64,000 nt of DNA. It comes from Stigmatella ashevillena. GTDB taxonomy: Bacteria > Myxococcota > Myxococcia > Myxococcales > Myxococcaceae. Positions within the stretch are counted from its first letter, which is position 1. Each line of letters opens with the position of its first letter. The stretch covers positions 3,652,425-3,716,424 of the forward strand of contig NZ_JAQNDM010000002.1 in assembly GCF_028368975.1 (NCBI RefSeq), in the 5' to 3' direction. Shown piece after piece: positions 15,050 to 40,738 of the stretch. The notes under the pieces were generated by a model. That model saw only the letters and a list, made by a program, of their open reading frames with translations. It was not told the origin of the DNA and searched no databases. Made by a program: the position numbers and the translations under genes.

Positions 15050-16396
15050 TCAAGCCCCCCCCGTGGCTGCCGGTGCCACCGGCAGCAGCAGCGTCACGCG
15101 CAGGCCACCACCGCTCCGGTTGGCGAGCACGAGTTCGCCGTCCAGTGTGGCCGCCAGTTGCTGAGCGATGGCCAGCCCCAGTCCGGTGCCGCCGGTATCG
15201 CGGTTGCGCGAGCTTTCCAGCCGGTAGAACGGTTGCAGCACCGCTTGCATCTCCTGTTCGGGAATGCCCGGGCCACGGTCGCACACGTCCACGGCCACGC
15301 GCCCGTCGTCGAGCTGGCGCACGCCAACCTCGGCGCCGCCGCCGTACTTCACCGCGTTGTCGATCAGGTTCTCGACGATGCGCCGCAATGTCGGCGGCCG
15401 CGTGCTCAACGCAGCGCGCACGCATTCGCCCAGCGTGACCGGCTTGCCCGCGTCCTGGTAGTCGCACACCACGCTGTCGAGCAATGCGTGCAGGTCCAGC
15501 CGCACTGCCGGACCGGTGGCGCCATGGGTGCTGCGCGCGTAGGCGATGCCCTCGCGCACCAGCTGATGCAGCTGCCCCAGGTCGCCGATCAGGCGATCTC
15601 GGTCGGCTCCCTCATTCATCGCTTCCAGACGCAGCTTCATGCGAGTGATCGGTGTTTGCAGGTCGTGCGAGATCGCGGCCAGGATCTGCAACCGCTCCGC
15701 GAGATAGTGGCCGATGCGCGCCTGCATCGCATTGAACGCGGTGGCGGCCTTGACCACTTCTACCGGCCCTTCCTGCGGCAACGGCGGGCGCGCGCGCGCC
15801 GGGTCCAGCCGCTCGACCGCGTCGGCCAACTGCACCAACGGTCGCGTCGCCAGCCGCACCGCCAGCCACGCGCACACCAGCAGCAGCGCCAGCTGCGCCG
15901 CCAGCACCACCGGCAGCCAGCGTGAGATCGGCATCACCGAGGGCGTGACATCGAGGGTCAGCGGCTGGCCGTCGGCCAGTGTGAGCTCCACCTCGAAGCG
16001 CTCCGGCGAGGTGGACACCGTGCGCGCCCGCAGGGGGTAGCGATGGTCCAGGCTGCGATCGATCAGGGCGGTGACCTCACGCGCGCGGTCGCTGGTCAGG
16101 GGCACACCGGGCCGAGCAGGGCCGAGCAGGTAGCGGTAGGTGCGCCGCTCCAGGCGCGGCGCCCATCGCGCGCGCTCGGCCGGGCTCAGGCGTTCGAGCA
16201 GGGCCACGCTGACGGTCACGTCCTGGTCCAGGTGGGTGAGCATCATCGAACGGGCGACCATGAAGCGCTCGGAGAACAGCAGCGCGAAGGACAGCGCGTG
16301 CGCGAGCAGCAAGCCGGTGAACAGGATCAGGGTCAGGCGCGCGCCGAGGGTGCGTGGCAGCAGGCGTCGCCAGCCGATGCGCGGGGGGGCGTTCAT
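15050..16396 (-). CDS. Sensor histidine kinase of a two-component system
   Basis: 448 residues. Two membrane helices (residues about 19-42 and 166-186) enclose a periplasmic sensor region. HAMP follows (RPLVQLADAVERL). The dimerisation and phosphorylation box is AAISHDLQTPITRM, with the His that is phosphorylated. The ATPase domain shows NLIDNAVKYG (N box), DRGPGIP (G1), FYRLESSRNRDTGGTGLGL (F and G2). It overlaps the response-regulator gene by four bases (ATGA), so the two are translationally coupled. Organisation and wording resemble EnvZ/RstB-type kinases of Xanthomonadaceae. The signal sensed cannot be told. An upstream extension of the frame is the shadow of the regulator gene. Confidence 0.93.
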   Translation of the reverse strand: MNAPPRIGWRRLLPRTLGARLTLILFTGLLLAHALSFALLFSERFMVARSMMLTHLDQDVTVSVALLERLSPAERARWAPRLERRTYRYLLGPARPGVPLTSDRAREVTALIDRSLDHRYPLRARTVSTSPERFEVELTLADGQPLTLDVTPSVMPISRWLPVVLAAQLALLLVCAWLAVRLATRPLVQLADAVERLDPARARPPLPQEGPVEVVKAATAFNAMQARIGHYLAERLQILAAISHDLQTPITRMKLRLEAMNEGADRDRLIGDLGQLHQLVREGIAYARSTHGATGPAVRLDLHALLDSVVCDYQDAGKPVTLGECVRAALSTRPPTLRRIVENLIDNAVKYGGGAEVGVRQLDDGRVAVDVCDRGPGIPEQEMQAVLQPFYRLESSRNRDTGGTGLGLAIAQQLAATLDGELVLANRSGGGLRVTLLLPVAPAATGGA

Positions 16397-17133
16397 GCAT
16401 TCTCGCCGAGCAGGACCACAGGCTGACAGAACACATAGCCCTCGCTGCGCACGGTCTTGATGTAGGCCTGCTCGCGCGCGTCGTCGCGCAGGCGCTGGCG
16501 CAGGCGGCTGACGAGCAGGTCGATGGAGCGGTCGAACAGCTCGGCGTCGCGGCCCCGGGTGAGGTTGAGCAGCTGGTCGCGGCTGAGCACGCGCTGCGGG
16601 TGGTCGAGGAACACGCGCAGCAGGCGGAACTCCGCGCCACTGAGCGGATAGGCGGTGCCGTCTCCGTCGAGCAGGTGGCGCGCGGAGGTGTCCAGTCGCC
16701 ACTGGCCGAACCCGATCAGCCGACCCGCCTCGGTGATCTGAAGGTTGGGCGGCAACATGCGCGTGCGCCGGAGCACCGCGTTGATGCGCGCCAGCAGCTC
16801 ACGCGCGGAGAACGGCTTGACCACGTAGTCGTCCGCACCCATCTCCAGGCCGACGATGCGATCGGTCTCTTCATCGCGCGCGGTGAGCATCACCACCGGC
16901 ACGGTGCGGTGCTTGCTGGCGCGCAGGTTGCGGCACAGGGACAGACCGTCCTCACCGGGCATCATCACGTCGAGGACGATCAGGTCAACGTCGCTGGTGT
17001 CCATCGCCGCGCGCATCTCGCGGCCGTCGGCCGCGAGCGTGGTGCGCAGGCCGTTGCGCTGCAGGTATTCGCCGACCAAGCGACGGATCTCGCGGTCATC
17101 GTCGACGATGAGGATGTGGTCTGTATGGGCCAT
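16393..17133 (-). CDS. OmpR-family response regulator
   Basis: 246 residues. Receiver domain residues 1-115 with the acidic pocket (VDDD), phospho-acceptor Asp in LIVLDVMMPGEDG, Thr in VMLTARDEE and Lys in VVKPFSARELLARI. A winged-helix DNA-binding domain follows (PLSGAEFRLLRVFLDHP, LSRDQLL, IDLLVSRLRQRL, KTVRSEGYVF). It is cognate to the overlapping kinase. I chose the ATG at 17131-17133 by alignment with the family; an in-frame ATG at 17154 is possible, and neither has a good ribosome site. It likely controls its own operon or the neighbouring hydrolase, which is inference. Confidence 0.93.
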   Translation of the reverse strand: MAHTDHILIVDDDREIRRLVGEYLQRNGLRTTLAADGREMRAAMDTSDVDLIVLDVMMPGEDGLSLCRNLRASKHRTVPVVMLTARDEETDRIVGLEMGADDYVVKPFSARELLARINAVLRRTRMLPPNLQITEAGRLIGFGQWRLDTSARHLLDGDGTAYPLSGAEFRLLRVFLDHPQRVLSRDQLLNLTRGRDAELFDRSIDLLVSRLRQRLRDDAREQAYIKTVRSEGYVFCQPVVLLGENA

Positions 17134-17229
17134 GGTGTCGTCCGTGGGAAGCATAGCGACGGCCGCGCCGCGACCGCCGCCATGTTAGCGCACCAGATTC
17201 AGCCCGCAGCCAAGACGAAGGCCCCCATC

Positions 17230-24143: not shown

Positions 24144-27100
24144 ATGTTGGACATTCCCGGCTACAAGGTTCTTGGCACCATCCGAGCGACTGGCTCGAAT
24201 GTACTCTTCCACGCGGTGCGTGAGGCCGATGGCTTGCCCGTCATCCTCAAGACGCCCATGGCGCCCACGCCAGGCCCCAGCGAGCGCGAACGCTACCGCC
24301 GGGAATTCGGAATCCTGCAGCGGCTCCGGGGCGTGAGCGGCGTGGCCAAGCCCTATGCCTGTGAACTCATCCGCGAGCGGCCGGTGCTCCTGTTGGAGAG
24401 GATTCAGGGCGAGCCCTTGTCTGAGTTCGTGGGTCGCCCGCTGGGGGTCCCCCGGTGTCTCGGCGTGGCCATCTCCCTGGCCTCGACCCTGGCGGAGATT
24501 CACTGCCGCCATGTCATCCACAAGGACATCAAGCCCTCGAACATCATTCTCGAACCCTCCGGCGAGGCGCGGCTCATCGACTTTGGGGCTGCCACGCTGC
24601 AAAAGATTGAGCATCTGGATGCCGCGCCCGCTCATATGATCGAGGGAACGCTTGCGTACATGTCGCCCGAGCAGACGGGGCGGATGAACCGGGCGGTGGA
24701 CTATCGGACTGACTTCTACTCACTCGGTGTGACGCTTTATGAGCTGCTCACGGGCCAACGGCCCTTCCAAGGGCGTGATGCGCTCGAGTGGTTCCATGCG
24801 CACATGGCCCAGAACCCCAGGCCGCCGCACGAACTCAACCCCGGCGTGCCCCGGGCCTTGTCGGCCATCGTGACGAAGCTGCTGGCCAAGGTGGCCGAGG
24901 AGCGCTACCAGAGCGCCGAGGGCTTGAAGGCCGACCTCGAGCAGTGCCGTGAAGGATTGCTCCAGGACACGTTGGAAGGATTCACTCCAGGCGCGCACGA
25001 TACCCCCCACCAGTTCCAACTGCCTCAGCGGCTCTATGGGCGAGAAGCGCAGGTCTCTACGCTGATCCAGGGTTTCGAGCGCGTCATCTCGACCGGCAAG
25101 CCGGAACTCTTCCTGGTCAGTGGCTACTCCGGCATCGGCAAGTCCTCGGTGGTGCATGAACTGCACAGGCCGGTGGTGCAGCGACGCGGGTTCTTCCTGA
25201 GCGGGAAGTTCGAGCAGTTCCAACGGAACATTCCCTACTCGACCCTGGCGCAGGTCATTCGGGGGCTGATGCAGCAGCTCCTGGCGGGAGCGGATGAGGA
25301 ACTGGCGAAGTGGCGTGAACTGCTGAATCAGGCGTGGGCGGGCGATGGCCAGGCGCTCGTGGACTTGGCACCTCAGCTGGAGGTGTTGGTGGGCAAGCAG
25401 CCACCGCTCCAGGCGCTGCCTCCCAATGAGACGCAGTACCGCTTCCACCGGGTGCTCCGCCAGTTCCTGCAGGTGTTCGCTACTCCCGAACACCCGCTCG
25501 TGGTCTTCCTCGATGATCTGCAGTGGGCAGACCTGGCAAGCCTTCAGCTGATCCAACAGGTGTTGTCCCAGCCGGAGATCCTCCCCGTGCAGTGGATTGG
25601 CGCCTACCGCGACAACGAGGTGAGCCCCTCTCACCCGCTGACTCCGATGTTGAATGAGGTGAGCAGGGCCGGTGCGCGGATCACCCGAATTGACCTGGAG
25701 CCCTTGAGCCTGACACAGGTTGAGCAGCTGATCGGCGATACGCTCCCGGGAGTGGGGGAGGACATGGCCATCCCCCTCTCTGCCTTGGTGCACGAGAAGA
25801 CCGGCGGCAACCCGTTCTTCCTCCTCCAGTGGATGGTGACGTTGAACCAAGACGGCCTGCTGGTGCGCGAGCCAGGGGGAGGCTGGAGTTGGGATGCCGC
25901 AAGCGTCCGGGCCAAGGGCTACTCGGACAATGTTGTCGACTTCATGGTGGGCAAGCTGCGCCAACTGCCTTCCGGGACGCAGCACCTGTTGCAGCTGGCG
26001 GCGTGCGTGGGCAATGTCTTCTCACTCCAGATGCTGAAAACACTGGCGGGCCTGGAGGAGGTGGGAGACGTGGAGCAAGGGCTCGAGTCCGCGCTCCAGG
26101 AAGGCATGCTGACGCGCACGGGGCCGGAGCAGTACCGCTTCCTCCACGATCGCATCCAACAGGCGGCCCACGCCCTGCTCTCCCAGGCGGAAGGCAAGTT
26201 CGTCCACCTGCGCATCGGCCGGTTGCTGCTGAAGAGCTTGTCACCCGAAGAGGTGGGCGAGGCGATCTTCGATGTCGTGAGTCAACTCAACGTGGGGGTG
26301 GAACTGATTGATGAGCCAGGGGAGCGTTACCTCGTCGCGCGGCTGAACGCTGAAGCGGGCCGGAAGGCCGCGGCCGCAGTGGCGCCCCTGCCTGCTATCA
26401 CCTACCTCACAGCCGCCTTCGCGCTCATTCCAGGCAACCCATGGGAGACGGATTACGAGCTGGCCTTCAAAGTGCTTTCCTCCCGGGCAAAGTGCGAGCT
26501 CCAGTGCGGCAATGCCACCGGGGCGCGCCAACTGGCGGAGGAGCTCCTTTCACAGGCACGGACACGTGCGGACACCACCGCCGCCTATTGCCTGAAGGGC
26601 ACCAGCTGTCTGGTCTCTGGCGAGATTCAGGAGGGGACTGCCTGCATGCTGGAGTGCTTGGCGAAGCTGGGCATGCCCATGTCACAGAACCCCGCTTGGA
26701 ATGAGGTATTGGCGGCCCACGAGGAGGTATGGACGCTGCTAGGGGATCGCTCCATCGAGAGCCTCATTGACCTGCCGCCCATGACGGACCCGGACATGAA
26801 GATGGTGATGGAGGCGCTCTCCACCGCCTTCACGTCGGCCTACTTTTCCGGCCCCCAGTTGCTCATCATCGTCCTGAGCCGGATGGTCTCCCTCACGTTT
26901 CGTCACGGTTTCACGGAAACGGCGATGAGAGGACTCGGTTGGTTCGGGGTGCTGACCGGCTTCATGTTCAAGCGGTATCAGGAAGGCACTGCCCTGGGGA
27001 GGCTCGCCTACGGCCTCGTCGAGCGGCACAACATGGCCACCTGCCGCGCACAGGTGCTCTCCAGCCTGGAGAACATCAGCTACTGGACCCAACCTTTCTC

Positions 27101-29435
27101 CGCCGTGCAGGAGATCGCCCTCAGTGGGCTCCACCACGCGCTCCAGTTGGGAGACTTTCAGTCCGCGAGTTTTTTCAGCGTTTCGACCCTGGGGAATCGT
27201 CTGGTTCTGGGGCATGCCCTGGCTGACATCCACCGGGAATCAGTCGCGCGCGGTGAGTTCCTGCACAAGGCCGGGTTCCAGGATTGCCAGGACATGCTGC
27301 TCATCTACCAGCGCTACGTGCAGCAGTTGCGCGGACACTCGCTCTCATTCGGTACCCTGAACGGAGAGGGCTTCGATGAACAGGCCTTCGAGGCTCGGCT
27401 GACCCCCGGGCGCATGCCCCCCCTGCGGTGCATGTACTGGATCGTCAAACTCCAATCCCGCTTCATGTGCGGATCCCTGGACGAAGCCCGCGAAGCTGCG
27501 GGCCGGGCGGCCGAACTGCTGGGATCCATGACAGGCTCCATCCTCATCAAAGATTACCACTTCTTCAGCGCCCTGACCCTGGCCGCGTGCTTCGACGAGG
27601 CAACACCCGAGAAGCAGCAGCAGTCCCTCCAGGCCATCCGGAGCCATCATCAGCAGCTCGTGGAGTGGGCAGAGCAGTGCGCCGAAAACTTCCGCGCGTT
27701 GGAGCGGATGGTGGAAGGTGAACTGGCCCGTCTCGAGGGGAGAGGGAATGAGGCAACGTGTGCTTACGAGGAGGCCATCTGCGCGGCGAGAGAGAGCGGT
27801 GCCACCCACTGTGTGGGGCTGGCCAGCGAGCTGGCGGCGAACTTCTGGCGCACGCGGAAGGCGCCCATCGTCTCTCATTCGTTCGCACGCGAGGCCCGGG
27901 CGGCGTATCTGCAATGGGGAGCCCGGGGCAAGGTTCAGCACCTGGATGCCCAGTGGCCGCACATCGAGGCTCCTCTGTCGGCAGACGGCAGCAGTACCAG
28001 CAGCACGGAATCGGCTCAGATAGACGCCATCACGGTGGTCAAGACCCAGCAAGCCATCTCGGGTGAGATCGTCCTGGAGCGGCTGGTGACCACGCTGTTA
28101 CAGGCAGCCATCGAGAATGCAGGCGCTCAGCGAGGAGCCCTGCTGCTGCCGGGCGGGGACACGCTTTCGGTTGCGGCCACCTCCAGCGCTTTGCCGGGCA
28201 ATCCCTTTGTCCCGCCAGGAGAGGACTCGATGCAGGCGCTGCCGTGGACGATCCTCACCTATGTCCGGCGCACCCATGAGGCGGTGCTCATTGGGGATGC
28301 CTCCAAGCCCCACCCGTTCTCGTCCGATGCGTATCTGACGCGCAGCAAGGCGCGCTCGGTGCTGTGCCTGCCGTTGATGCGCCAGGAGCAATTCTCCGGA
28401 GCGCTGTATCTGGAGAACAACCTGGCCACCAACGCCTTCAGTCCCGCGCGTCTGGCATTGCTCGGACACATTGCCTCGCAGGCAGCCATCTCCATTGAGA
28501 ATGCACGGCTCTATGCCGACGTGGAGCGCGCCCGGGCGGAGTTGCGGGAAGCAAACGATGAGCTTGAGCAGCGGGTGAACGAACGCACGCGCGAGCTCAC
28601 CCAGGCCCAGGCCCGGCTGGTGGACACCGCGCGCGCGGTCGGAATGGCCGAGGTGGCCTCCAACGTGCTGCACAACGTGGGCAACGTGCTCACCAGCGCG
28701 GTCATCAACCTCGAGATGATGCACCACGCGGTCGGCTCCTCACGCGTCGGCCGGTTGAAGCAGGCCACCGCCCTGATTCTGAAGCACCGTGAAGGACTGG
28801 CGGACTTCCTGGCCCCCGGGGCACGCGGTGGCAACCTGCCGGGCTACCTGGCCGCGCTGGCCGAAGAGCTCATCGGAGAGCAGACCCGCCTGGTGGAAGA
28901 CATCGACGCGATGAGTCGGCACATCGCGCACATCCGTGCCATCGTCCATGTGCAGCAGACGTATGCCAGGACGTCGCTGATGACGGAGGAGTGCGACCTG
29001 GCCCAGCTCATCGAGGATGCCCTGCGCATCCAGATGGCGGCGCTCAATCGTCACGGAGTGGCCCTCCAGCGCCAGATCGCTCCGGTTCCCACGCTGAAGG
29101 TGGACAAGCACAAGGTGTTGCAGATTCTCATCAACCTCATCAGCAACGCGAAGCACGCGCTGGACGAAGTGCCCGAGGGAAAGCGCAACATGTGTGTGCG
29201 GCTGGTGGTGGAGGGCAACCGAGTACGTATCCAGGTAGAGGATGATGGAAGGGGCATCGCACCGGAGATACGGGAGAAGCTCTTCACGCACGGCTTCACC
29301 ACGCGCCATGACGGCCACGGCTTCGGCTTGCACTCGAGCGCGCTGGCGGCGCAGATGCTGGGGGGACGCCTCACACTGGAAAGTGAGGGCGCGGGCAAGG
29401 GCGCCGTGGCCACGCTCGAGTTTCCGCTCTCTTGA
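24144..29435 (+). CDS. Trifunctional Ser/Thr kinase, AAA-type ATPase and sensor histidine kinase
   Basis: 1763 residues. Residues 1-270: protein kinase with HKDIKPSN (126-133), DFG (146-148) and GTLAYMSPEQTGRMN. Residues about 290-560: STAND-like ATPase with YGREAQ and P-loop SGYSGIGKSS (326-335) and a Walker-B-like VVFLDDLQWAD. A long TPR-like helical region follows. GAF domain about 1310-1470, then a coiled coil (ANDELEQRVNERTRELTQAQ). The histidine box is ASNVLHNVGNVL (His 1510), ATPase domain NLISNAKHAL near 1662 with DDGRGIAPEI and HGFGLHSSAL. This architecture is a well-known expanded class in myxobacteria and cyanobacteria. No response regulator is adjacent, so the partner is elsewhere. 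GAGGA precedes the ATG. Confidence 0.95.
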   Translation: MLDIPGYKVLGTIRATGSNVLFHAVREADGLPVILKTPMAPTPGPSERERYRREFGILQRLRGVSGVAKPYACELIRERPVLLLERIQGEPLSEFVGRPLGVPRCLGVAISLASTLAEIHCRHVIHKDIKPSNIILEPSGEARLIDFGAATLQKIEHLDAAPAHMIEGTLAYMSPEQTGRMNRAVDYRTDFYSLGVTLYELLTGQRPFQGRDALEWFHAHMAQNPRPPHELNPGVPRALSAIVTKLLAKVAEERYQSAEGLKADLEQCREGLLQDTLEGFTPGAHDTPHQFQLPQRLYGREAQVSTLIQGFERVISTGKPELFLVSGYSGIGKSSVVHELHRPVVQRRGFFLSGKFEQFQRNIPYSTLAQVIRGLMQQLLAGADEELAKWRELLNQAWAGDGQALVDLAPQLEVLVGKQPPLQALPPNETQYRFHRVLRQFLQVFATPEHPLVVFLDDLQWADLASLQLIQQVLSQPEILPVQWIGAYRDNEVSPSHPLTPMLNEVSRAGARITRIDLEPLSLTQVEQLIGDTLPGVGEDMAIPLSALVHEKTGGNPFFLLQWMVTLNQDGLLVREPGGGWSWDAASVRAKGYSDNVVDFMVGKLRQLPSGTQHLLQLAACVGNVFSLQMLKTLAGLEEVGDVEQGLESALQEGMLTRTGPEQYRFLHDRIQQAAHALLSQAEGKFVHLRIGRLLLKSLSPEEVGEAIFDVVSQLNVGVELIDEPGERYLVARLNAEAGRKAAAAVAPLPAITYLTAAFALIPGNPWETDYELAFKVLSSRAKCELQCGNATGARQLAEELLSQARTRADTTAAYCLKGTSCLVSGEIQEGTACMLECLAKLGMPMSQNPAWNEVLAAHEEVWTLLGDRSIESLIDLPPMTDPDMKMVMEALSTAFTSAYFSGPQLLIIVLSRMVSLTFRHGFTETAMRGLGWFGVLTGFMFKRYQEGTALGRLAYGLVERHNMATCRAQVLSSLENISYWTQPFSAVQEIALSGLHHALQLGDFQSASFFSVSTLGNRLVLGHALADIHRESVARGEFLHKAGFQDCQDMLLIYQRYVQQLRGHSLSFGTLNGEGFDEQAFEARLTPGRMPPLRCMYWIVKLQSRFMCGSLDEAREAAGRAAELLGSMTGSILIKDYHFFSALTLAACFDEATPEKQQQSLQAIRSHHQQLVEWAEQCAENFRALERMVEGELARLEGRGNEATCAYEEAICAARESGATHCVGLASELAANFWRTRKAPIVSHSFAREARAAYLQWGARGKVQHLDAQWPHIEAPLSADGSSTSSTESAQIDAITVVKTQQAISGEIVLERLVTTLLQAAIENAGAQRGALLLPGGDTLSVAATSSALPGNPFVPPGEDSMQALPWTILTYVRRTHEAVLIGDASKPHPFSSDAYLTRSKARSVLCLPLMRQEQFSGALYLENNLATNAFSPARLALLGHIASQAAISIENARLYADVERARAELREANDELEQRVNERTRELTQAQARLVDTARAVGMAEVASNVLHNVGNVLTSAVINLEMMHHAVGSSRVGRLKQATALILKHREGLADFLAPGARGGNLPGYLAALAEELIGEQTRLVEDIDAMSRHIAHIRAIVHVQQTYARTSLMTEECDLAQLIEDALRIQMAALNRHGVALQRQIAPVPTLKVDKHKVLQILINLISNAKHALDEVPEGKRNMCVRLVVEGNRVRIQVEDDGRGIAPEIREKLFTHGFTTRHDGHGFGLHSSALAAQMLGGRLTLESEGAGKGAVATLEFPLS

Positions 29436-31218: not shown

Positions 31219-31339
31219 GACAGCCCACCTGGGCGAGCGGCCGACGCACCTTGTGCATCGGGGCGGGAAGTCGTTGGCCCAGCAAGCATACGACTCCAGA
31301 TGCCACGCGAGCTCTCCCCCGTTTCCGTAGGCGCTTAAG

Positions 31340-31831
31340 ATGGCGGGCACCGCCATGACCCCTACGCCCCACCTTCCCTCCCCCGCTGGCTCCGATGCCC
31401 CGCTCGCTTCAGTGCCCGCCGCGCGCTTCATGGCCCACGCCGCCGCTTGGCTGCTGCTCATTGGCCTCCTCACCGGCGGTTATGTGTCTGCGGCCATGAC
31501 AGGCAAGGTGCCCGCAGATCCCCAGATGGCGCTCGCCGCCCACCTCAACGCGCTCCTGGGCGCCTTCTTCCTGCTCGGTGTCGCGTGGACGCTGCCCATG
31601 CTGCGCTATGGCGCCGTGGGCCAGCAGCGCCTCGCCTGGCTCGTCATCGTCGCCAACTTCGCCAACTGGGGCGTGACGTGCGTGAAAGCCTGGTTGCGCG
31701 TGTCGGGCGTGGACTTCATCGGCCAGCCGACCAATGACGCCATCTTCGTCGTCCTCACCCTCTCCGTGGTGCTGCCCTCGCTCGCGGCCGCGGGCGCGTG
31801 GGTGTATGGCTTTCGCCGCCCCCACGCCTGA
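31340..31831 (+). CDS. Small four-helix membrane protein, hydroxylaminobenzene mutase-like
   Basis: 163 residues with four membrane helices. AHAAAWLLLIGLLTGGYVSAA and DPQMALAAHLNALLGAFFLLG resemble the pattern of hydroxylaminobenzene mutases (HabA/HabB), which have a similar PxMALxxHLxxxxxGxF segment. NDAIFVVLTLSVVLPSLAAAG forms the last helix. The known enzymes convert hydroxylaminobenzene to aminophenol, but most members are uncharacterised, so the activity should be treated as a family label. Two possible ATGs (31340, 31355) lack ribosome sites. It stands alone between YihY and a convergent peptide gene. Confidence 0.65.
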   Translation: MAGTAMTPTPHLPSPAGSDAPLASVPAARFMAHAAAWLLLIGLLTGGYVSAAMTGKVPADPQMALAAHLNALLGAFFLLGVAWTLPMLRYGAVGQQRLAWLVIVANFANWGVTCVKAWLRVSGVDFIGQPTNDAIFVVLTLSVVLPSLAAAGAWVYGFRRPHA

Positions 31832-31873
31832 GTCTCTCCCGCCAGTCCCGCGCGCCGCGAGCGAGGCCGCCGC

Positions 31874-32071
31874 TCACTCGATGGAGCAGTGATCCTCACA
31901 AATGCAGCCTCCGCCCGCCCGGAAGCACCGGATAAAACAGGTGCACTCCGCGTCGAGGCAGTACCCCGAACACGAGGGGGCTGCTTCCGCCTCCGTCTGG
32001 GACAGTCCTCCCAGGACCCCTCCGGCCGCGACTCCCAGGACAAAAACCAGCTTCACGATTCCCTTGCGCAT
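31874..32071 (-). CDS. Secreted peptide with eight cysteines
   Basis: 65 residues. Residues 1-31 are a classical signal peptide (MRKGIVKLVFVLGVAAGGVL core, AEAA cleavage region). The mature part of about 34 residues has eight cysteines: PSCSGYC, AECTCFIRCF, GGGCICEDHCS. The ATG at 32069-32071 has GGGGAG eight bases upstream, so it is a real small gene. The spacing would allow four disulfides; metal binding is an alternative. The acidic C-terminus and the small size recall secreted Cys-rich myxobacterial peptides of unknown function. No processing or export gene is adjacent. Convergent with the membrane-protein gene. Confidence 0.7.
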   Translation of the reverse strand: MRKGIVKLVFVLGVAAGGVLGGLSQTEAEAAPSCSGYCLDAECTCFIRCFRAGGGCICEDHCSIE

Positions 32072-32250
32072 GATGCACTCCCCTCTGGATTAGGCCTCCA
32101 CTTCCGGGAGTGGAACCTAACACACGAGCCGCGCCAGCCCCTTGCGTCTGCCTCCGCAGGGAGGGCACGCGGACATGTGCAGCGCCAAGGTGCGACGCAT
32201 TCACCCAGCCCAACCTGGCGCGCGGCTCGCGTCCGAGATGGGCTCCCACC

Positions 32251-32460
32251 CTACTGGCAGCCCCCCGGGAAGGCAGCCCAGTCGGCCGCCGTGAAGAGGC
32301 CCAGCCCGGTGGGCTGGTGGGGTCCGTTGCTCAGCCAGAAGTTGCGGTAGGTGGTCAGGGCATGGGGCATGGACTTGCCCAGCTGATTCAGGTCGAAAAA
32401 GCCCTGGCGCGCCGCCACCGGCCCGGCGCGTCCGCAACCCTTGGTCCCAATCCGCGACAA
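32251..32460 (-). pseudogene. C-terminal remnant of an unidentified secreted protein
   Basis: In the 395-bp gap 32072-32466 the minus strand holds about 50 codons that look coding: FFDLNQLGKSMPHALTTYRN, then HQPTGLGLFTAADWAAFPGG, ending in a stop at 32251. The composition (many aromatic residues, a final Cys) suggests the end of an extracellular protein. No start, signal or upstream coding part remains. I do not recognise the family. It lies head-to-head with the beta-rich protein gene. Confidence 0.35.
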
Positions 32461-32466
32461 TCGGAT

Positions 32467-34041
32467 ATGACCGTTCTCCGCAAGCCGCCAGGCATGTCAT
32501 CGCTCACGCCTCCCCGGGGCCCTTTGGTAACGGACTCAAAGCCAGGCGATGCACGCGCACCGTCAACGGCAGGCAGGCAGACTGGCACGCGCCCGGCCCG
32601 GGCCGACGGCTTCCTTCCGCTGCGGCATGATCGGAGCGAGTTCGCGGATGACCGTCGGCGCCCTCTGGGCGGGTTCACGATGGGGGCTGAGACTGGCGCC
32701 TCGATCGAGGTGACGCCTGACCGTCTCTCCGGCTCCGTCAAGAGCGAGGTCAAGGGCGAGACCAAGGGGGAGCACGGCTCGGCGTCGGCTTCAGTGACGG
32801 CAGAGATCACCGCCACCTCTGAGGTGGTCGAGGAGGATGGGCGAAGGAGGTGGACCACTACGGCCAAGGCTTCGGTTTCGGGCGAAGCCTCTGGCGACGC
32901 CAAGGGCAAGGTGCGTGGCCACGATGTGAAGGGCTCAGGTTCCATCTCGGCGGAAGCCTCGGTGGAAGTAAAATACGAGGTGAGCGTGCCCGTCGGCGCA
33001 AAGCCCGAGCGCACGCCGAGCGAGATCTCTCCCTATACGCCAGAGTCGATGCCCCCGGGCACCATCATCACCCTCGACAGCTCCGAGAACACCGAGTGGG
33101 AGGCCGAGGGCTCCGTGTCGGGAGGCAAGGGCATCTGGGGTGGCACGGTGGGTGCCTCTTATGGTGAGTCGGACTCGAAGGGCGTGACGGTCTCCATCGA
33201 GAAGACGTCGGAGACGAAGGTAAAGGTGTCGGTGGGCCCTACCGAGGCGAAGGGGCGGCACGGGAAGGTCGAAGTCGGCCTCGAGGTAGGTCCGTTGGAA
33301 GTGGGCCTTGGCATCGGAAGCTCGACGAGCGCGAAGCAGGCGACGGTGCGCGAAGTGGAATTCGACCTCGCCACGCCCGAGGGCAAGGCGGCCTATGACC
33401 ACTTCATGGCCACCGGTGAGCTTCCCACGCAAGCCGGCCCCGGTGTGTCGGGCACCACCGTGGTCGCGCGCCGCAACGGCGTCACCGCGATGGACCTGGA
33501 AGCCAGCCTGGGCGTGGGCGGAGAGACGGTGGAAGGCTCGCTGCACTCCGAAGCCACCTACGACACCGTTACGACCACGCACCCGGACGGATCGAAGGAG
33601 GTCGAGTACCGCGAGAAGCTTCCTGGCTACGACGGCGCCCTGACCGTCAAGCGAACCTACGGGCCTGACGGGAAGGAAGATGTCTCCAAGCGCGTGTATC
33701 AGTACGAGGTGGAGGTGACCGACGCCAATGCCGCAGGCGTCAACGGAATGCTGAATCTCGGCTACGGAGATGGCCGCAAGGTGAAAAAGGGGGACTGGGT
33801 CACCGTGGAATTGTCGCAGGAGGACTACGACAGGCTGTGTGACCAGGCCGTGGAGGCGTCCGGGAAGAAACGCCTCTGGGGAAACGAGGGACTGGTGCCA
33901 GGGCAGGCTGGCTCTGTGGACCGTGAGAGTTTCCTTTCGTCGCTGCTGGAGCGGGGGGCGAAGGCGTTCAACCTGCTTCAGCAACTGGCGCTGGACACCG
34001 GGAAGCCTCTGCCCGGCAAGGTGAAGGTCAACGGCGAGTAG
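32467..34041 (+). CDS. Beta-rich repetitive protein of unknown function
   Basis: About 524 residues from the ATG at 32467; the start is uncertain because no candidate (32467, 32494, 32680) has a good ribosome site. The first 70 residues are Pro/Arg-rich. The body, residues about 75-320, is dominated by alternating Ser/Gly/Val/Glu/Lys stretches (SGSVKSEVKGETKGEHG, then SASASVTAEITATSEVV, SISAEASVEVKYEVS, TVSIEKTSETKVKVSVG), predicting a large beta-sheet structure. EVEFDLATPEGKAAYDHFMA, SLHSEATYDT and TTHPDGSKEVEY follow. The end has KKGDWVTVELSQEDYDRLCD and SSLLERGAKAFNLL. No signal peptide or catalytic motif. The charged repeats resemble structural or toxin-associated scaffold proteins, but I cannot assign it. 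Confidence 0.65.
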   Translation: MTVLRKPPGMSSLTPPRGPLVTDSKPGDARAPSTAGRQTGTRPARADGFLPLRHDRSEFADDRRRPLGGFTMGAETGASIEVTPDRLSGSVKSEVKGETKGEHGSASASVTAEITATSEVVEEDGRRRWTTTAKASVSGEASGDAKGKVRGHDVKGSGSISAEASVEVKYEVSVPVGAKPERTPSEISPYTPESMPPGTIITLDSSENTEWEAEGSVSGGKGIWGGTVGASYGESDSKGVTVSIEKTSETKVKVSVGPTEAKGRHGKVEVGLEVGPLEVGLGIGSSTSAKQATVREVEFDLATPEGKAAYDHFMATGELPTQAGPGVSGTTVVARRNGVTAMDLEASLGVGGETVEGSLHSEATYDTVTTTHPDGSKEVEYREKLPGYDGALTVKRTYGPDGKEDVSKRVYQYEVEVTDANAAGVNGMLNLGYGDGRKVKKGDWVTVELSQEDYDRLCDQAVEASGKKRLWGNEGLVPGQAGSVDRESFLSSLLERGAKAFNLLQQLALDTGKPLPGKVKVNGE

Positions 34042-34288: not shown

Positions 34289-37200
34289 TCACCCGAACGT
34301 CACGTTCAGCGGGAGCGCCACCGTGAAGGTGGCTCCTCCGCCCTCCGTGGGCATGAGGCGAATGCTGCCATCGTGCGCTTCCGCAATGTGGCGAGAGATC
34401 CATAATCCCAGCCCGAACCCGCCATAGTTTTTCTCGGAAACGGCGCGCTCGAAGCGCCCGAAGATGCGCTCCTCATCCTCTGGCCCGATGCCGGCGCCGT
34501 GATCCATCACCGTGAGGAAGGCATGGTCCGAATCCCTCCGCACAGCCACCTCAACGGGCTTTCCCGCCCCGAACTTGAGTGCGTTGTCGAGGAGGCCTTC
34601 GAGGAGCTGGTGCAGCCTCGCCCGGTCGCAGTGTCCCATGACGGGCAAGGGCGCATTCAAGGTGAGGACGCAACCGGCGTGAGCGGCCTTGCTCCGCGCC
34701 TGCTCCACGACGGCGCTCGCGACCGCCAACAAGTCTACTTCCTGCCGTGCGAGCTTCAGGCGGCCGGTGACGAACTCGGACGCGTCCAGCAACTGCTCGA
34801 CGAGGCGCGCCAAGCGGTGCAGCTGTTTCTGCGTCGTTTGCGCCTTCACCCCGATCGGTTCCAGCGAAGCCTCGGCACCGCCTTCACGGCCCATGCTTCG
34901 GACCAAGGATTGAAAGTTGAGAGACAGGGCGCTCACGGGCGTGCGCAGCTCATGGCTGACGAGACTGAGAAACTCGTCTCGCACCCGCACGGACTCGCGC
35001 AGCACCTTCTTCTCAAGCTCGCTGCGGACCACCTCCCGGCGCACGCGAGCCATGTCGAGATGGGTGCGCACCCGGACCATGAGCTCGCGAGCAGAGAAGG
35101 GCTTCACCAGGTAGTCATCCGCTCCGCTCTGTAAACCCTCCACCGTGGACTCATCGCCCGCTCGCGCGGAGAGCAGGATGATGGGGATGGCGCGCGTGTC
35201 CTTGTCGGCGCGAAGGGCGCGCACCAACCCCAAGCCGTCCAACCCCGGCATCATCACATCGGAGAGGACCAAGTCCGGCGGCTGGACGCGCACCCGCTCG
35301 AGTGCGTCGTGTCCATTCGTGGCTGTCTCGACGTGGGGGAAGACGCGCCCAAGCAACCCAGCGACGTAGGTGCGCAGGTCGGCGTTGTCGTCGACGAGGA
35401 GGATGCGGGAGCGCGCAATCTCTTCAGGCACCTCCAGCACCGGGGCCTCGGACGCTTCGGCGCTGGACATGTCCGTGCCCGTGGCATCTGCGGACCAGCG
35501 CTGCGCCTCCTCAACGAAGGGCGCGGCCCCCGAGGCGAAAGAGCCCGGCCGGAGCGTGTGCTCGATTCGCTCTGGAGGCAGGTGGGCCGAACCGCGTGGC
35601 AGCCGCAGGGTGAAGGCCGTGCCCTTACCGAGCGTGCTCTCCACCGAGATGCTACCGCCGTGAAGCTTCATCAACTCCTGCACCAGGGCGAGACCGATGC
35701 CCGTGCCTTCGTGGCTTCGTCCCTGGGTAGCACGGACGCGGTAGAAGCGCTCGAAGACGCGCGGAAGCTCTTCTTCGGGAATCCCCACCCCAGTGTCCTG
35801 GACGGTGAGGACCGCATGGTCGTCCTGCCACCTGAGGACAATACGGATCTCACCTTCATAGGTGTACTTCACTGCATTCGAGAGAAGGTTCAAGACAACC
35901 TTCTCCCACATCTCCGGGTCGACGTAGAGGGGCTCGGGCAGGGGGGGGCAATCCACCACCAGCCTCAAGCCCGCGCTCTCTACCGCGGATTGAAAGGCGC
36001 TCGCGAGGTTGCGCGTCACGGAGGAAAGGTCTACCGGCACGTAGTGGGCCTGGGCCCGGCCCGCCTCCATCCGCGAGAAGTCGAGCAGCGTGTTGACCAT
36101 CTTGTAGAGCCGCAAGGCATTGCGGCGAACCAGGTCGAGCTTCTCTCCTTCCAACGATTTTTCCGGCTTGGACAACGCATCCTCGACGGGACCGAGAATG
36201 AGCGTGAGCGGGGTCCTGAATTCATGGCTCACATTGCTGAAGAATGCCGTCTTCGCCTGGTCAAGCAGGGCCAACGCCTCTGCCCGCTGCTTTTCCTGCT
36301 CATAGGCACGGGCACTGGAGATGCTGGCCGCGAGCTGCCGCGCCAGAAGCTGCAGGAAGCCGCGGTACTCGTCGTCCAGCGCGACCAGTGGGCTCAGGCC
36401 CGCCACCAGCACGCCCATGCCCGCGGTATCCGCGCCCATGGGCACGGGAAGGACGAGGGCGCGCGTCGCTGGCTCGGGCCAAGGGCCGCCAGGAAGGCGG
36501 CCAAACTTCAAGTGGAGGTCTTCGACCAGTGCCTCCTGCCTCAGGCTGGCAACGGCGGCGAGTGGCCACGCGTCGGTGTCGCCAAGGCTCAGCCCGAGAG
36601 GGGCTGCGGGGGCTCCCCGCTCAAGGCCGGAGCAGCTCACCAGGTGCGCCTTCTCGGCCTTGACGACGTAGAGGAGCGCGAAAGGCAGATCGTTACCAGC
36701 CTGCGCAAGGACTTCTTCCAGCGAGCGGAAAACCCCTTCGACCTTCTTATCGAGCGCCGCCCGGATGGACAGTTCCCGGAGGATCCCCAGCCGGCGATCA
36801 CCCACCACCTGGCGCGTCGTCTCGCTCGCGATGGCGAAGAGGCCCGCGATCTCCCCCATCTCACCGATGGTCGGATTGTAGGACCAGGTGAAGTATGCCT
36901 CTTCTCTCAACCCGCCAGGCCGCCGTGCAAAATTGACGTTCCCGTTCTCGATGAACAGGGGCTCTCCCGTCTCGTGAACGCGCTTCATCAAGGGGCCGAG
37001 GAGCGCCCACTCCTCGGCAAGCGCCTCATGCCCGCGCGCGCCCATGGTCTGGGGATGCTTCGCCCCCAGGATGGGCCGGAACGGATCGTTGTAGAGCATT
37101 CGGAGCTCGGGACCCCAGAACAGAATGATGGGATAAGGGGAGCGGAGCATCGTGCTGATGGAGGTCCGCAGAGACTGGGGCCAAGCTTCGACCGGTCCCA

Positions 37201-40200
37201 GCGAGTTCTTGGACCAGTCAATGGAGCGCATCAGCGCGCCCATCTCTCCGCCGCCTTGAATGAAACTCTCCTCGGCGCCCGGCCGCGGGAGTGCGATGCG
37301 GAGTGCTGGCGAGACCGCGCCCGCCTTCTGTTGTCCGGATGGAAGCGAGAAAGAGAAGGTGCTGCCCTCGCCAGAGGTCCTCTCGAGCCGGATGTGCCCT
37401 CCGTGGCTCTCCACGATGCCCTTGGCGATGGAGAGGCCCAGGCCATGTCCCTCACGCTTGTTCTGCGCCCCGTGCCAGTAACGATCGAAGATGTGCGGTT
37501 GCGCGGAAAGAGGGACCCCCGGGCCGGTATCCACTACGCTGAGACGGATGTCCTCGGTCTCCACCTCGGCCTTGGCCCGCAGGAGGATGCTGCCCCCAGG
37601 GGGCGTGAATTTGATCGCGTTGGAGAGCAGATTTCCGAGCGCTTGAAGGATCCGTTCCTTGTCACACGGCAGGATGAGTCCTGGCTCCACTTCGAAGGCG
37701 AGCTGCAAGCCTTTCTCGGCCGCGTGAGGCTCGAACAATTCCCGGGCATCACGGACGAGCTCATCGACCCTCTGCGGGTGAGCCTGGACGGAGAGTGTTC
37801 CGGCATCAATGCTCGCCAAATCCAGCAGATCATCGATGAGCCGGTTCATCCGGTCCGCGGAACGTCGAATGGCGTCCGCCTGCTTGTGCACGCGGGCGAG
37901 CGGCTCACCCTCGGGAGGAATTCGCCGGAGGAGTTCGGCGGAGGTGCGAATGGCGGTGAGCGGCGAGCGCAAGTCGTGGCTGACGACGGCGAGCATGTCC
38001 TCGCGAAGACGCGTGGCGCGGCGGGACTCCTCGAGAAAACGCAGGGTGTCCTCCACGTGGGCGCGTTCCGAGCGGACCGCCGCCTGGCGCAGTTGCGAAA
38101 CCGTGAGCAGCGCGGTGACGCGCGCCAAGAGCTCCTTCGCGGAGAAGGGCTTGACGAGGTACGCATCCGCGCCACTGTTCAGCCCTTGAATGGTGGCCTC
38201 TTCGCCTGCACGTGCAGACAGGAGCAGGATGGGAATGGTGCGGGTGCGGCTGTCCGCGCGAAGGGATTGAACCAGCTCCAGACCATTCACCCCTGGCATC
38301 ATCACGTCGGAGATGATGAGGCTGGGAGGATTCGCCCGCGCGGCGGCGAGGGCCAAGGAGCCCTCGCTCACTGGCTCCACGCTCCAGTGCGGAGACAGGA
38401 GGCGTGAGAGGTAGATCCGCATGTCGGCGTTGTCGTCCGCCAACAAGATACGGGCTTCGGAGAGCGGGGGGGACGGCGCAGCGGGGAGAGTTGGCTCCGG
38501 ATTCCAGAGGGAGGCCTCCGCAAGGAACAAGCGGGATTCACTCCCGGTGGAGGGGATCGTCCGGGGAGCCCCCAGGTGCTCTTGGGGCAAGTGCGCAGAG
38601 CCAGCCGGGAGGCTGACCGTGAACGTGCTTCCCTGGCCGAGGACACTTTTCACCGTCACTCTTCCGCCGTGCAGCTTCACCAACTCCTGCACCAGCGCGA
38701 GCCCGATGCCCGTGCCCTCATGGCTGCGCCCTCGCGCTCCCTCTACCCGATGGAAGCGCTCGAAGATGCGGGGCAGCTCCGCCTCCGGCATACCCGTTCC
38801 CGTATCCTGAACGGTGAACTCCACACGATCGCCGAGCCACCTCAGCGCAATGAGAACCTCCCCCTGGAGGGTGAACTTCAAGGCGTTGGAGAGGAGGTTC
38901 AAGACAACCTTCTCCCACATGGCCGGGTCCACGTAGACGGCCTCGGGGAGGACGGGGCAGTCAACCACCAGCGCCAGACCGGCAGCCGCCATCGCCGAGC
39001 CGAAGTTGCTCGAGAGCTCGATCGTGAGGGCGGACAGATCCGTCGGGACGAAGGAAGCCTGGGCGCGCCCGGCCTCCATGCGGGCGAAGTCGAGCAGCGT
39101 GTTGACGAGCTTCCGCAGGCGCAGACCATTGCGGTGCACCACTTCCTGCCGTTCCCGCTGCTTGGGGGGGAGGGGATGTTCGGTGTCCTCCAGGCCATCC
39201 TCGACGAGCCCGAGCATCAGCGCGAGCGGGGTGCGAAACTCGTGGCTCACGTTGTTGAAGAAAGCCGTCTTGGTACGGTCAATCTCCGCCAGTGCCTCCG
39301 CCCGCTTCTTTTCCTCCTCGTAGGCGCACGCGCTGCTGACGGCGGTGGCGATGTGATCCGCCACCAACCCAAGAAATCCACGGTAGTCGTCGTCGGGGGC
39401 GCGCCTCGCGCTCAAGCCCGCGACGAGAAAGCCATGGAGGCGCACAGAGCCTGCACGGGAAATGGGGAACACCCAGGCCGAGTGAGGAGCTTCCGGCCAG
39501 GTGCCTCTGGGAAGCTCCGCGAAGCGGGCGCGCACATCCGGGACGAATTGGGGGGTCAGGGTCGCAGCCGCATCCGCGAAGGGCCACAGCAGGCTTGCCT
39601 GAGGTGCGCCCATGAGCGAAACAGCGGCTGCTGTATCCGTCCCCCAGCCGGCCGTCTCTACCAATTCGGGCCTCTCACCCGCGTCATTCATCCGGTACAG
39701 CAAGGCGAAGGGAACGTCCAAAACGTTGCCCGCCAGCACCTGGGCGGCTTCTCGCCACGCATCTTGTTCCCGCCTCACCGGTCCCGCGCGCGCCGCGAGG
39801 TCTCTCAGTGTCCGCAACCGTCGTTCGCCGAGCACCCGGCCGGTCGTTTCGGTGACGGTGACATGAACACCTCCGACGCCCCCACTCTCGTCTCGTATCG
39901 GACTGTACGAGAAGGTGAAGTAGCACTCCTCGAGATAGCCATTGCGGTCAAGCGGGAGCATCCAGTCTTCGGAGCCGACCGCCTTCCCTTGTCTCACTTC
40001 CTCGAACATCGGACCGATGAGGTGCCAGCCCTCCGCGAACGTGGCCTGGGAGCTGCCGCCCAGGGCGCCGGGATGCTTGGTCGAGCCAAGAATCGGGCGG
40101 AACCCATCGTTGTAGAACTGAACGAACTGGGACCCCCACGCGATGTACATTGGAAAGCGCGATTCGAGCAGGATGCCGACCGCCGTGCGCAGCGACTGGG

Positions 40201-40375
40201 GCCACGTTTCCAGCGGCCCCACGGGAGTCTGAGCCCAATCGATGGAGCGCATGAGGGCTCCCATCTCGCCCCCACCCACGGGCAGCGCCGCAGCGGCTCC
40301 TTGAGGCTCGCCCGGCGGCTGGGGGGCGGAAGAGGAACTGCTCGCCGCTTCGTGAGGTGTGCTTGAGGTACCCAT
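34289..40375 (-). CDS. Hybrid histidine kinase built from an internal tandem duplication
   Basis: 2028 residues made of two similar halves. Half one (about 33-1010): PAS-like sensor starting GGGEMGALMRSIDW, a GAF-like region, kinase with NVSHEFRTPL (His 378), ATPase, receiver (ISDVMMPGVNG, Asp 690; LVKPFSAKELL), then a second kinase with VVSHDLRSPL (His 800) and its ATPase. Half two (about 1041-2028): again GGGEMGALMRSIDW, GAF-like, kinase with NVSHEFRTPL (His 1384), receiver (LSDVMMPGLDG, Asp 1706; LVKPFSARELM) and final kinase LVSHELRTPV (His 1808). There are no membrane segments, so sensing is cytoplasmic. Four kinase and two receiver modules in one chain allow an internal relay. The ATG at 40375 is the first likely start; a weak GTG lies 6 codons earlier. 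The terminal output protein is not encoded nearby. Confidence 0.92.
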   Translation of the reverse strand: MGTSSTPHEAASSSSSAPQPPGEPQGAAAALPVGGGEMGALMRSIDWAQTPVGPLETWPQSLRTAVGILLESRFPMYIAWGSQFVQFYNDGFRPILGSTKHPGALGGSSQATFAEGWHLIGPMFEEVRQGKAVGSEDWMLPLDRNGYLEECYFTFSYSPIRDESGGVGGVHVTVTETTGRVLGERRLRTLRDLAARAGPVRREQDAWREAAQVLAGNVLDVPFALLYRMNDAGERPELVETAGWGTDTAAAVSLMGAPQASLLWPFADAAATLTPQFVPDVRARFAELPRGTWPEAPHSAWVFPISRAGSVRLHGFLVAGLSARRAPDDDYRGFLGLVADHIATAVSSACAYEEEKKRAEALAEIDRTKTAFFNNVSHEFRTPLALMLGLVEDGLEDTEHPLPPKQRERQEVVHRNGLRLRKLVNTLLDFARMEAGRAQASFVPTDLSALTIELSSNFGSAMAAAGLALVVDCPVLPEAVYVDPAMWEKVVLNLLSNALKFTLQGEVLIALRWLGDRVEFTVQDTGTGMPEAELPRIFERFHRVEGARGRSHEGTGIGLALVQELVKLHGGRVTVKSVLGQGSTFTVSLPAGSAHLPQEHLGAPRTIPSTGSESRLFLAEASLWNPEPTLPAAPSPPLSEARILLADDNADMRIYLSRLLSPHWSVEPVSEGSLALAAARANPPSLIISDVMMPGVNGLELVQSLRADSRTRTIPILLLSARAGEEATIQGLNSGADAYLVKPFSAKELLARVTALLTVSQLRQAAVRSERAHVEDTLRFLEESRRATRLREDMLAVVSHDLRSPLTAIRTSAELLRRIPPEGEPLARVHKQADAIRRSADRMNRLIDDLLDLASIDAGTLSVQAHPQRVDELVRDARELFEPHAAEKGLQLAFEVEPGLILPCDKERILQALGNLLSNAIKFTPPGGSILLRAKAEVETEDIRLSVVDTGPGVPLSAQPHIFDRYWHGAQNKREGHGLGLSIAKGIVESHGGHIRLERTSGEGSTFSFSLPSGQQKAGAVSPALRIALPRPGAEESFIQGGGEMGALMRSIDWSKNSLGPVEAWPQSLRTSISTMLRSPYPIILFWGPELRMLYNDPFRPILGAKHPQTMGARGHEALAEEWALLGPLMKRVHETGEPLFIENGNVNFARRPGGLREEAYFTWSYNPTIGEMGEIAGLFAIASETTRQVVGDRRLGILRELSIRAALDKKVEGVFRSLEEVLAQAGNDLPFALLYVVKAEKAHLVSCSGLERGAPAAPLGLSLGDTDAWPLAAVASLRQEALVEDLHLKFGRLPGGPWPEPATRALVLPVPMGADTAGMGVLVAGLSPLVALDDEYRGFLQLLARQLAASISSARAYEQEKQRAEALALLDQAKTAFFSNVSHEFRTPLTLILGPVEDALSKPEKSLEGEKLDLVRRNALRLYKMVNTLLDFSRMEAGRAQAHYVPVDLSSVTRNLASAFQSAVESAGLRLVVDCPPLPEPLYVDPEMWEKVVLNLLSNAVKYTYEGEIRIVLRWQDDHAVLTVQDTGVGIPEEELPRVFERFYRVRATQGRSHEGTGIGLALVQELMKLHGGSISVESTLGKGTAFTLRLPRGSAHLPPERIEHTLRPGSFASGAAPFVEEAQRWSADATGTDMSSAEASEAPVLEVPEEIARSRILLVDDNADLRTYVAGLLGRVFPHVETATNGHDALERVRVQPPDLVLSDVMMPGLDGLGLVRALRADKDTRAIPIILLSARAGDESTVEGLQSGADDYLVKPFSARELMVRVRTHLDMARVRREVVRSELEKKVLRESVRVRDEFLSLVSHELRTPVSALSLNFQSLVRSMGREGGAEASLEPIGVKAQTTQKQLHRLARLVEQLLDASEFVTGRLKLARQEVDLLAVASAVVEQARSKAAHAGCVLTLNAPLPVMGHCDRARLHQLLEGLLDNALKFGAGKPVEVAVRRDSDHAFLTVMDHGAGIGPEDEERIFGRFERAVSEKNYGGFGLGLWISRHIAEAHDGSIRLMPTEGGGATFTVALPLNVTFG

Positions 40376-40738
40376 CCAAGCACTCGATACCACACACCCT
40401 TTTGTGAGGGTGGGCAGAGCAGTTTCAGTCCAGAGCCCTCTTGCCTGAGTGCTTCCGAGTCGCAAGGAGGGCGGGCAGGCGCGATGCGCTCGGAGAGACC
40501 CAAGGAAAATAGGCGGAATAGGGGCCCACTGGCTCGGCGGCGGGCGAGGAGGCGCAGGAGGAGACGGCTGGGGCCAGCAAGGCCGTGCGCGGCGCCGGTG
40601 GAGGGGCCGAGCCTCCCCAGGGTTCCGTATTGCCACAGTGACGTCCACCTGCGCCCGGCGGATTCTTCATGCGCGAGTTCGTCTGCCCCCCGTTGCCTCA
40701 GCCGCGCAAGTACTCTGCCCAACAAACCGAGGGGCTCT

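Follow-up and report, generated by a model that had tools for sequence, protein, structure and literature searches.

A TRTTRT hybrid histidine kinase of Stigmatella ashevillena with two unlike terminal kinases, and its natural forms that keep the second half

Introduction

When a single polypeptide contains two similar halves, each with its own sensors, kinases and receiver, do the halves work side by side or does one signal through the other? The question is raised by a hybrid histidine kinase gene of Stigmatella ashevillena, located on the minus strand of a stretch of 64,000 nucleotides (contig NZ_JAQNDM010000002.1, positions 3,652,425 to 3,716,424; hereafter, the window). The open reading frame (ORF) runs from an ATG at window position 40375 to a stop codon that ends at 34289 and encodes 2028 amino acids (aa) with zero internal stops; the start codon is uncertain because the frame stays open upstream of this ATG, to a GTG at 40648. 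An earlier interpretation of this DNA, made from the letters alone (hereafter, the sequence-only reading), described the gene as a tandem internal duplication and proposed an in-protein relay that would integrate two cytoplasmic signals in one chain.

The architecture is already in print as a catalogue entry. In the part of Whitworth 2015 (PMC4603909) used here, STAUR_6958 of Stigmatella aurantiaca DW4/3-1 is named as a single TRTTRT hybrid kinase (T, kinase; R, receiver), an architecture that it has in common with the window protein, and is interpreted as the outcome of tandem duplication and fusion. The part used of a PeerJ 2015 survey (PMC4558063) reports a HK1HK2HK3HK4RR1RR2 type with 6 proteins in 6 of 7,609 species; this type has the same domain count as the window protein, a likeness of counts only, with domain order and protein names not given in that part. 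We did not find a mechanism for the architecture there, and literature searches on TRTTRT and on hybrid kinases of S. aurantiaca found no paper on the function of STAUR_6958, the locus tag itself not having been searched library-wide. Here, we describe a family of such proteins that spans several genera; the two terminal kinases differ, sensors have been exchanged and some members carry natural deletions. All four shortened forms that we found keep the complete second half.

Results

Two TRT units are encoded in one open frame

A Pfam scan of the 2028-aa protein gave four HisKA, four HATPase_c and two Response_reg stretches together with GAF_2 and one PAS_4 match. The resulting domain order, PAS-GAF-HK1-REC1-HK2-PAS-GAF-HK3-REC2-HK4, corresponds to T-R-T-T-R-T, i.e. 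to two TRT units within one open frame, as in proteins of the STAUR_6958 type. The four phospho-His boxes and two receiver Asp residues that had been noticed from the sequence are all accounted for (Table 1), and the four kinases have intact motifs. Likewise, the protein was said to lack a membrane anchor, and no membrane helix is evident in it, the highest 19-residue Kyte-Doolittle mean being 1.76. An HPt domain, as in ArcB and BvgS (HK-REC-HPt) and unorthodox kinases in general, was not reported by Pfam at E 0.001, and the 25 highest-ranking of 173 NCBIfam matches belong to families of other single kinases or hybrids.

The sensors are less readily recognized. Scanned singly, both PAS regions fell below the PAS_4 cut-off, while GAF1 scored above the GAF_2 cut-off. 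Residues 30-360, which cover the first sensor, were modelled with AlphaFold2 (alignment of 43 sensors); the model had a mean pLDDT of 90.4 and in Foldseek matched PAS and PAS-GAF structures, including the PAS domain of Rv1364c, with template modelling (TM) scores of 0.66-0.68 by target. Against phytochromes, the TM score by query was ~0.3-0.4, i.e. their arrangement of PAS and GAF was not matched.

The repeated unit is PAS-GAF-HK-REC

The two halves, which both contain a GGGEMG box (beginning at residues 34 and 1041), are 45% identical over 1020 columns (BLASTP, E reported as 0.0), far above chance, in agreement with the sequence-only reading of two similar halves in one polypeptide. Identity is unevenly distributed: it is 45.5% for PAS, 40.9% for GAF, 67.1% for the first HK and 62.9% for REC, and 30.5% for the terminal HK, with HK2 and HK4 no more alike than HK1 and HK2 (31%). 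Because the terminal kinases share only 30.5%, the repeated unit is PAS-GAF-HK-REC rather than all five domains.

The same conclusion emerges from a comparison with other kinases. Besides the fused gene, the genome contains several single-unit genes and one adjacent pair of TRT genes (C2:5212608-5218539), which are on the same strand and in the order of the halves, i.e. the first-half-like pair1 (5215582-5218539) is followed by the second-half-like pair2 (5212608-5215529). Among the matches listed, this gene pair occurs in four of the seven genomes of the genus (L005/L002 in the window's own genome, and G001, G002 and G003). In a FastTree tree of 115 kinase domains, for which supports are local only, HK4 belongs to a 26-row group (support 99) with the terminal kinases of pair2, other C-type genes and some further kinases, the order inside this group being weak. 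By contrast, HK2 groups (support 98) with kinases of ORFs L010, L128, L137 and L139 (601-759 aa). With support of 93, and on a long branch, the pair1 terminal kinases are sister to this HK2 group, and there may be a distant tie between the two. Judged by sequence, each copy of PAS-GAF-HK-REC thus carries its own kind of terminal kinase. The HK2/HK4 identity and the kinase tree rule out that all five domains were recently duplicated in tandem; of the tandem duplication originally proposed, the repeat of the first four domains stands and that of the terminal kinase does not.

The fused gene occurs in several genera

Full-length relatives are present in Myxococcus qinghaiensis, Corallococcus sicarius and Pyxidicoccus caerfyrddinensis. 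The genome samples described here overlap and the named relatives may recur among them, so that the counts are not to be summed. For the seven genomes of the genus, the matches listed comprise a full-length gene in two (the window's genome and G002, at 95% identity), an internally shortened gene in two (G001 and G003) and no close orthologue in three. A 403-residue query spanning the junction of the halves has matches at E 1e-80 or better in 9 of the 58 genomes of a family sample. Among further genera, 15 of 16 genomes match in g26, where 13 span the junction (two of them, G064 and G065, with short contigs and shorter open frames) and two, G061 and G062, hold the second half only; one of four genomes matches in g12, and nine of 27 in g23. 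Six of the g23 genomes have the form to which the window protein belongs (form A; 73-75% identical), six have a second form (form B; 51-53%) and three have both. Form B (L178-L182 and L184) consists of fused TRTTRT proteins of 2023-2134 aa, with identities given over the junction query and with different sensors in both halves. A cyanobacterial ORF of 2083 aa (L061, 11804-18052) matches one half with its C-terminal 1000 residues.

The G002 gene lies at 8.50 Mb, and gene 6958 of 8352 is expected at ~8.55 Mb by proportion; judged by this position rather than by an annotation, STAUR_6958 is probably the 95%-identical orthologue found in G002.

The sequence-only reading had itself named a frameshift or an assembly fault, with a single-half gene in the real genome, as what would overturn it. 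We give this explanation virtually no weight because independent assemblies from other genera contain full-length orthologues, and the gene is also full-length in the single-contig genome G002. Moreover, only some segments of the halves can be aligned as DNA (192-856 bases at 69-72% for three of them and 30 bases at 87% for a fourth); therefore, the repeat is old and would not be collapsed by short reads.

Natural shortened forms keep the second half

Four genomes contain shortened forms of the protein. G001 lacks approximately residues 372-775 (HK1-REC1) and G003 approximately residues 359-1027 (HK1-REC1-HK2); both deletions are in frame, and both proteins keep PAS1-GAF1 and the whole second half. 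In G061 and G062, the entire first half is missing and the second half forms open frames of 1024-1025 aa. Hence, all four keep a complete second half. Conversely, a first half without a second was not found among the close matches listed (the genus, the family sample, g26, g12 and g23), apart from contigs ending inside the gene, with queries that, for all samples but the genus, begin in HK2.

A single-half homologue in relatives, which the sequence-only reading suggested looking for, therefore exists in two of 16 genomes of one genus, and the tree suggests that the first half has been lost there. In a tree of the HK-REC columns, G061 and G062 are nested in a clade of full-length proteins; surrounding support is moderate (99/90 and 93/55), with one inner node at 37/10 when long branches are left out. 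Because both lie inside this clade, loss of the first half is simpler than its repeated gain. The G062 gene may be COCOR_01454 of C. coralloides DSM 2259, whose position it roughly fits. If so, COCOR_01454 would be a second-half-only form, shortened according to the tree, and not a single-unit ancestor.

In the full-length proteins, both halves appear to be maintained. All four His, both Asp and the ATP-binding N and G boxes are kept in 10/10 full-length proteins aligned. In form B, motif scans found the first three kinase H-boxes and both receiver D motifs in 6/6 proteins, and the HK4 His is present in an alignment. The ratio of nonsynonymous to synonymous substitution rates (dN/dS) is 0.04-0.52 for all ten domains in pairs holding each domain, with HK1 remnants of 1 and 14 residues in two shortened proteins set aside, and with the same remnants set aside PAS2 has the lowest dN/dS of all domains in 7/7 pairs. 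By this measure of sequence change, all ten domains are under purifying selection.

Sensors are exchanged on a conserved backbone

In the HK-REC tree, forms A and B share one clade of first halves (100/100) and one of second halves (100/99), and the two clades branch in broadly similar ways. On this basis, the fused proteins, including the divergent form B, seem to share one origin, most simply a single one that predates the A/B split. Of the six form B proteins, five make up a clade, and the sixth (L181) is at the base of A in both halves.

The sensors have a different history. In a quick tree of the sensors, AN, AC, BN and BC each take a position of their own, and so do the single proteins L155 and L181, for both of which long branches are flagged. 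For instance, L155 (genome G035) is 76% identical to the window protein in HK1, 54% in PAS1 and 30% in GAF1; its first-half sensor (approximately residues 185-505 of its ORF) has been replaced and groups with the Corallococcus paralogues L020 and L023. Thus, as far as sequences tell, sensor modules are exchanged on a conserved six-domain phosphotransfer backbone, and for this reason sensors are a poor guide to descent.

The exchange bears on the origin of the fused form, i.e. fusion of two older paralogues or duplication in one gene. From 100 distinct segments, a set of 68 rows was taken that left out loci L030-L082 except five, together with short segments; row L095_fusN of this set, which proved to be its own C half, was dropped. 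The sensor-inclusive tree had 55 rows after removal of 12 further loci (long branches or near-copies), and the kinase-receiver tree with long branches left out lacked nine loci (10 rows), L181 among them. In the free trees, first halves join pair1 and other single-unit genes while second halves join pair2; support is 100/100 with sensors, 93/69 for the full kinase-receiver tree and 99/92 when long branches are omitted. The approximately unbiased (AU) test rejected a single clade of all halves when sensors were included (p 0.0028; fused proteins of form A only, the window protein included), though exchanged sensors may drive this rejection, but did not reject it when only the kinase-receiver columns were used (p 0.347 and p 0.293). 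A firm claim that the halves are not sisters was therefore dropped, as it holds with sensors and fails on these columns.

We lean, on these trees, to a fusion of two older paralogues. The competing origin, which is closest to Whitworth 2015 and to the sequence-only reading, is that one TRT gene was duplicated and fused and that the terminal kinase and the sensors of the first half were then replaced. The HK1/HK3 and REC1/REC2 identities of 67% and 63%, the AU result on kinase-receiver columns and the support of only 93/69 for the split between the two kinds of halves speak for it, while the grouping of the halves with different single-unit genes and the sensor-inclusive test speak against it; in our judgement, it retains a little less than an even chance.

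The genomic neighbourhood is mostly unshared

On one side, the ORF nearest to the kinase gene encodes a leucine-rich repeat protein; the nearest on the other side has no Pfam match, and an acetyltransferase and others follow. The 643-aa ORF at 32110-34041 (plus strand), convergent with the kinase gene, has no Pfam match; beside the gene in G002, nothing matching it was found other than the part that overlaps a conserved stretch at 31331-32347. Another giant signalling protein, of 1763 aa and with a Ser/Thr protein kinase, an AAA ATPase, a GAF and a C-terminal histidine-kinase ATPase domain, is encoded ~5 kb off at 24144-29435 (plus strand). A regulator/kinase pair at 15050-17154 is ~17 kb off and not adjacent to the kinase gene.

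We compared 12 sets of flanks (window 24289-50375 and 11 orthologues; 5-10 kb on 23 of 24 sides and 1.4 kb on one) for a conserved neighbourhood that might point to partner genes. Flanks are mostly unshared, even within one genus, and flanking ORFs are rarely common to loci. Only four pairs of sets share any ORF at ≥50% identity, i.e. window/G002, L013/L155, L014/L155 and G001/G003, and the L013/L155 match (~54-60%) is on opposite sides of the gene. Such flanks would fit transfer or rearrangement, and mobility of the gene is possible.

Table 1. Features of the hybrid histidine kinase gene in the window
Feature	Position	Strand	Basis and remarks
Whole gene, 2028-aa hybrid histidine kinase, T-R-T-T-R-T	34289..40375	minus	ORF, Pfam; G002 orthologue matches residues 1-2028 in one frame
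PAS1 sensor, residues 30-190	39806..40288	minus	Weak PAS_4 match; AlphaFold2; Foldseek
GAF1 sensor, residues 191-350	39326..39805	minus	GAF_2 above cut-off
HK1 (HisKA+HATPase_c), residues 358-600, H378	38576..39304	minus	Pfam; boxes kept in 10/10 aligned full-length proteins
REC1, residues 641-758, D690	38102..38455	minus	Pfam; conserved 10/10
HK2, residues 780-1015, H800	37331..38038	minus	Nearest kinases are other myxobacterial ORFs of 601-759 aa, not HK4
PAS2 sensor, residues 1037-1195	36791..37267	minus	Below PAS_4 cut-off alone; lowest dN/dS of all domains
GAF2 sensor, residues 1196-1360	36296..36790	minus	GAF_2 just under cut-off alone: 25.8 of 28.6 bits
HK3, residues 1364-1603, H1384	35567..36286	minus	Pfam; 67% identical to HK1
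REC2, residues 1652-1775, D1706	35051..35422	minus	Pfam; conserved in aligned full-length proteins
HK4, residues 1788-2025, H1808	34301..35014	minus	Same kinase group as terminal kinase of pair2, paralogous gene pair elsewhere in genome

Discussion

We suggest a model in which the window protein is a soluble hybrid kinase of two TRT units, with the second unit as the output core and the first as an accessory input that feeds this core. The model is suggested by the observations that every shortened form found keeps the second half and that no first half alone is among the close matches, and we regard it as evenly poised between right and wrong. In this model, the PAS-GAF sensor of each unit would set the first kinase, which would phosphorylate the receiver behind it; the receiver would then either hand the phosphate on to the terminal kinase, for which TodS is a precedent, or switch this kinase, for which LvrA/LvrB are a precedent. 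The state of the first unit would be fed into the second, and phosphate would go from HK4, and probably also from HK2, to one or more response regulators whose genes lie elsewhere. By analogy with the same systems, the in-protein relay and the integration of two signals that the sequence-only reading proposed are plausible.

Several points weigh against this model. Every phosphotransfer step, the first-to-second-half direction and the output are inferred from sequence. HK4 has the highest dN/dS of the full domains in 3/7 pairs, with values of up to 0.52, which is odd for an output domain. For PAS1, dN/dS is 0.34 in G001/G003 and 0.395 in window/G003, and 0.06-0.25 in the other five pairs, and the shortened forms, which could represent early decay, come from only four genomes, of which G001 and G003 are sisters. 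The one-sided pattern of loss holds for queries that, beyond the genus, begin in HK2 and would miss lone PAS1-GAF1-HK1-REC1 units. Also, no response regulator gene was found among the nearest of the nine selected ORFs scanned around the kinase. Finally, accessory does not mean inactive, because in the full-length proteins the second half is no more intact than HK1, REC1 and HK2.

Alternatively, the chain could contain two independent TRT kinases, each relaying to its own response regulator, with the fusion only fixing their ratio and location. HK2 and HK4 are from different kinase groups and therefore may have different partners, and the two-gene relative with the same order shows up in four of seven genomes of the genus. 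However, G001 and G003 have kept the first sensor although its own kinase and receiver are gone, which suggests that it provides input to what remains; we consider independence of the two units unlikely, if still worth serious attention. A single linear relay, H378-D690-H800 to H1384-D1706-H1808 with HK2 as the bridge, is permitted by the domain order, and its first three steps are known in the TRT protein TodS, according to the part of PMC4321377 used here. Yet, HK2 directly precedes PAS2 and not a receiver, and it would need to reach D1706 across PAS2-GAF2-HK3. To our knowledge, moreover, His-to-His transfer is not a known step, and such a relay appears improbable.

As described in the part used of PMC4321377, TodS of Pseudomonas operates by a His-Asp-His-Asp relay, and TodS/TmoS resemble each half of the window protein in their HK-REC-HK order, their PAS input and their lack of a transmembrane region; they have one TRT unit while the window protein has two, and TodS has two PAS sensor domains, whereas each half of the window protein has a PAS and a GAF ahead of its first kinase. 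The HK-REC-HK order with intact phospho-sites is found twice in the window chain. The second PAS domain of TodS is placed before the terminal kinase; in the window protein, no sensor fits before HK2 because by the assigned domain limits only 21 residues separate REC1 from HK2 (12 separate REC2 from HK4). The gene for TodT, the cognate response regulator of TodS, is adjacent, unlike in the window, where the nearest of the nine scanned ORFs hold no regulator gene. In Leptospira, the autokinase activity of LvrB rises with its partner LvrA and does not do so in the receiver mutant D56A, as stated in the part used of PMC5863495, which treats them as two separate proteins, whereas the window protein is one chain. 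A phmmer match of structure 8vc9 of LvrB (REC-HK) runs from REC1 into HK2 (residues 676-1012, E 1.9e-24), in domains common to many kinases.

To the catalogued architecture, our analysis adds PAS-GAF-HK-REC as the true repeat, one apparent origin that includes a divergent form, exchange of sensors, and deletions that keep the second half. We tentatively speculate, with rather less than even confidence, that the protein is one that grows and shrinks module by module, with a six-domain backbone, freely exchanged sensors and a first TRT unit that is an optional upstream stage feeding the second. If so, the natural deletions of HK1-REC1, of HK1-REC1-HK2 and of the whole first half would be a ready-made series for testing signal integration in one polypeptide. 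While no new principle is involved, these findings are of use to the fields of two-component signalling and hybrid kinase evolution: the intact, shortened and sensor-swapped orthologues in related species provide a means to ask whether signals of the first half pass through the second, and they also bear on how fused kinases are built and pruned.

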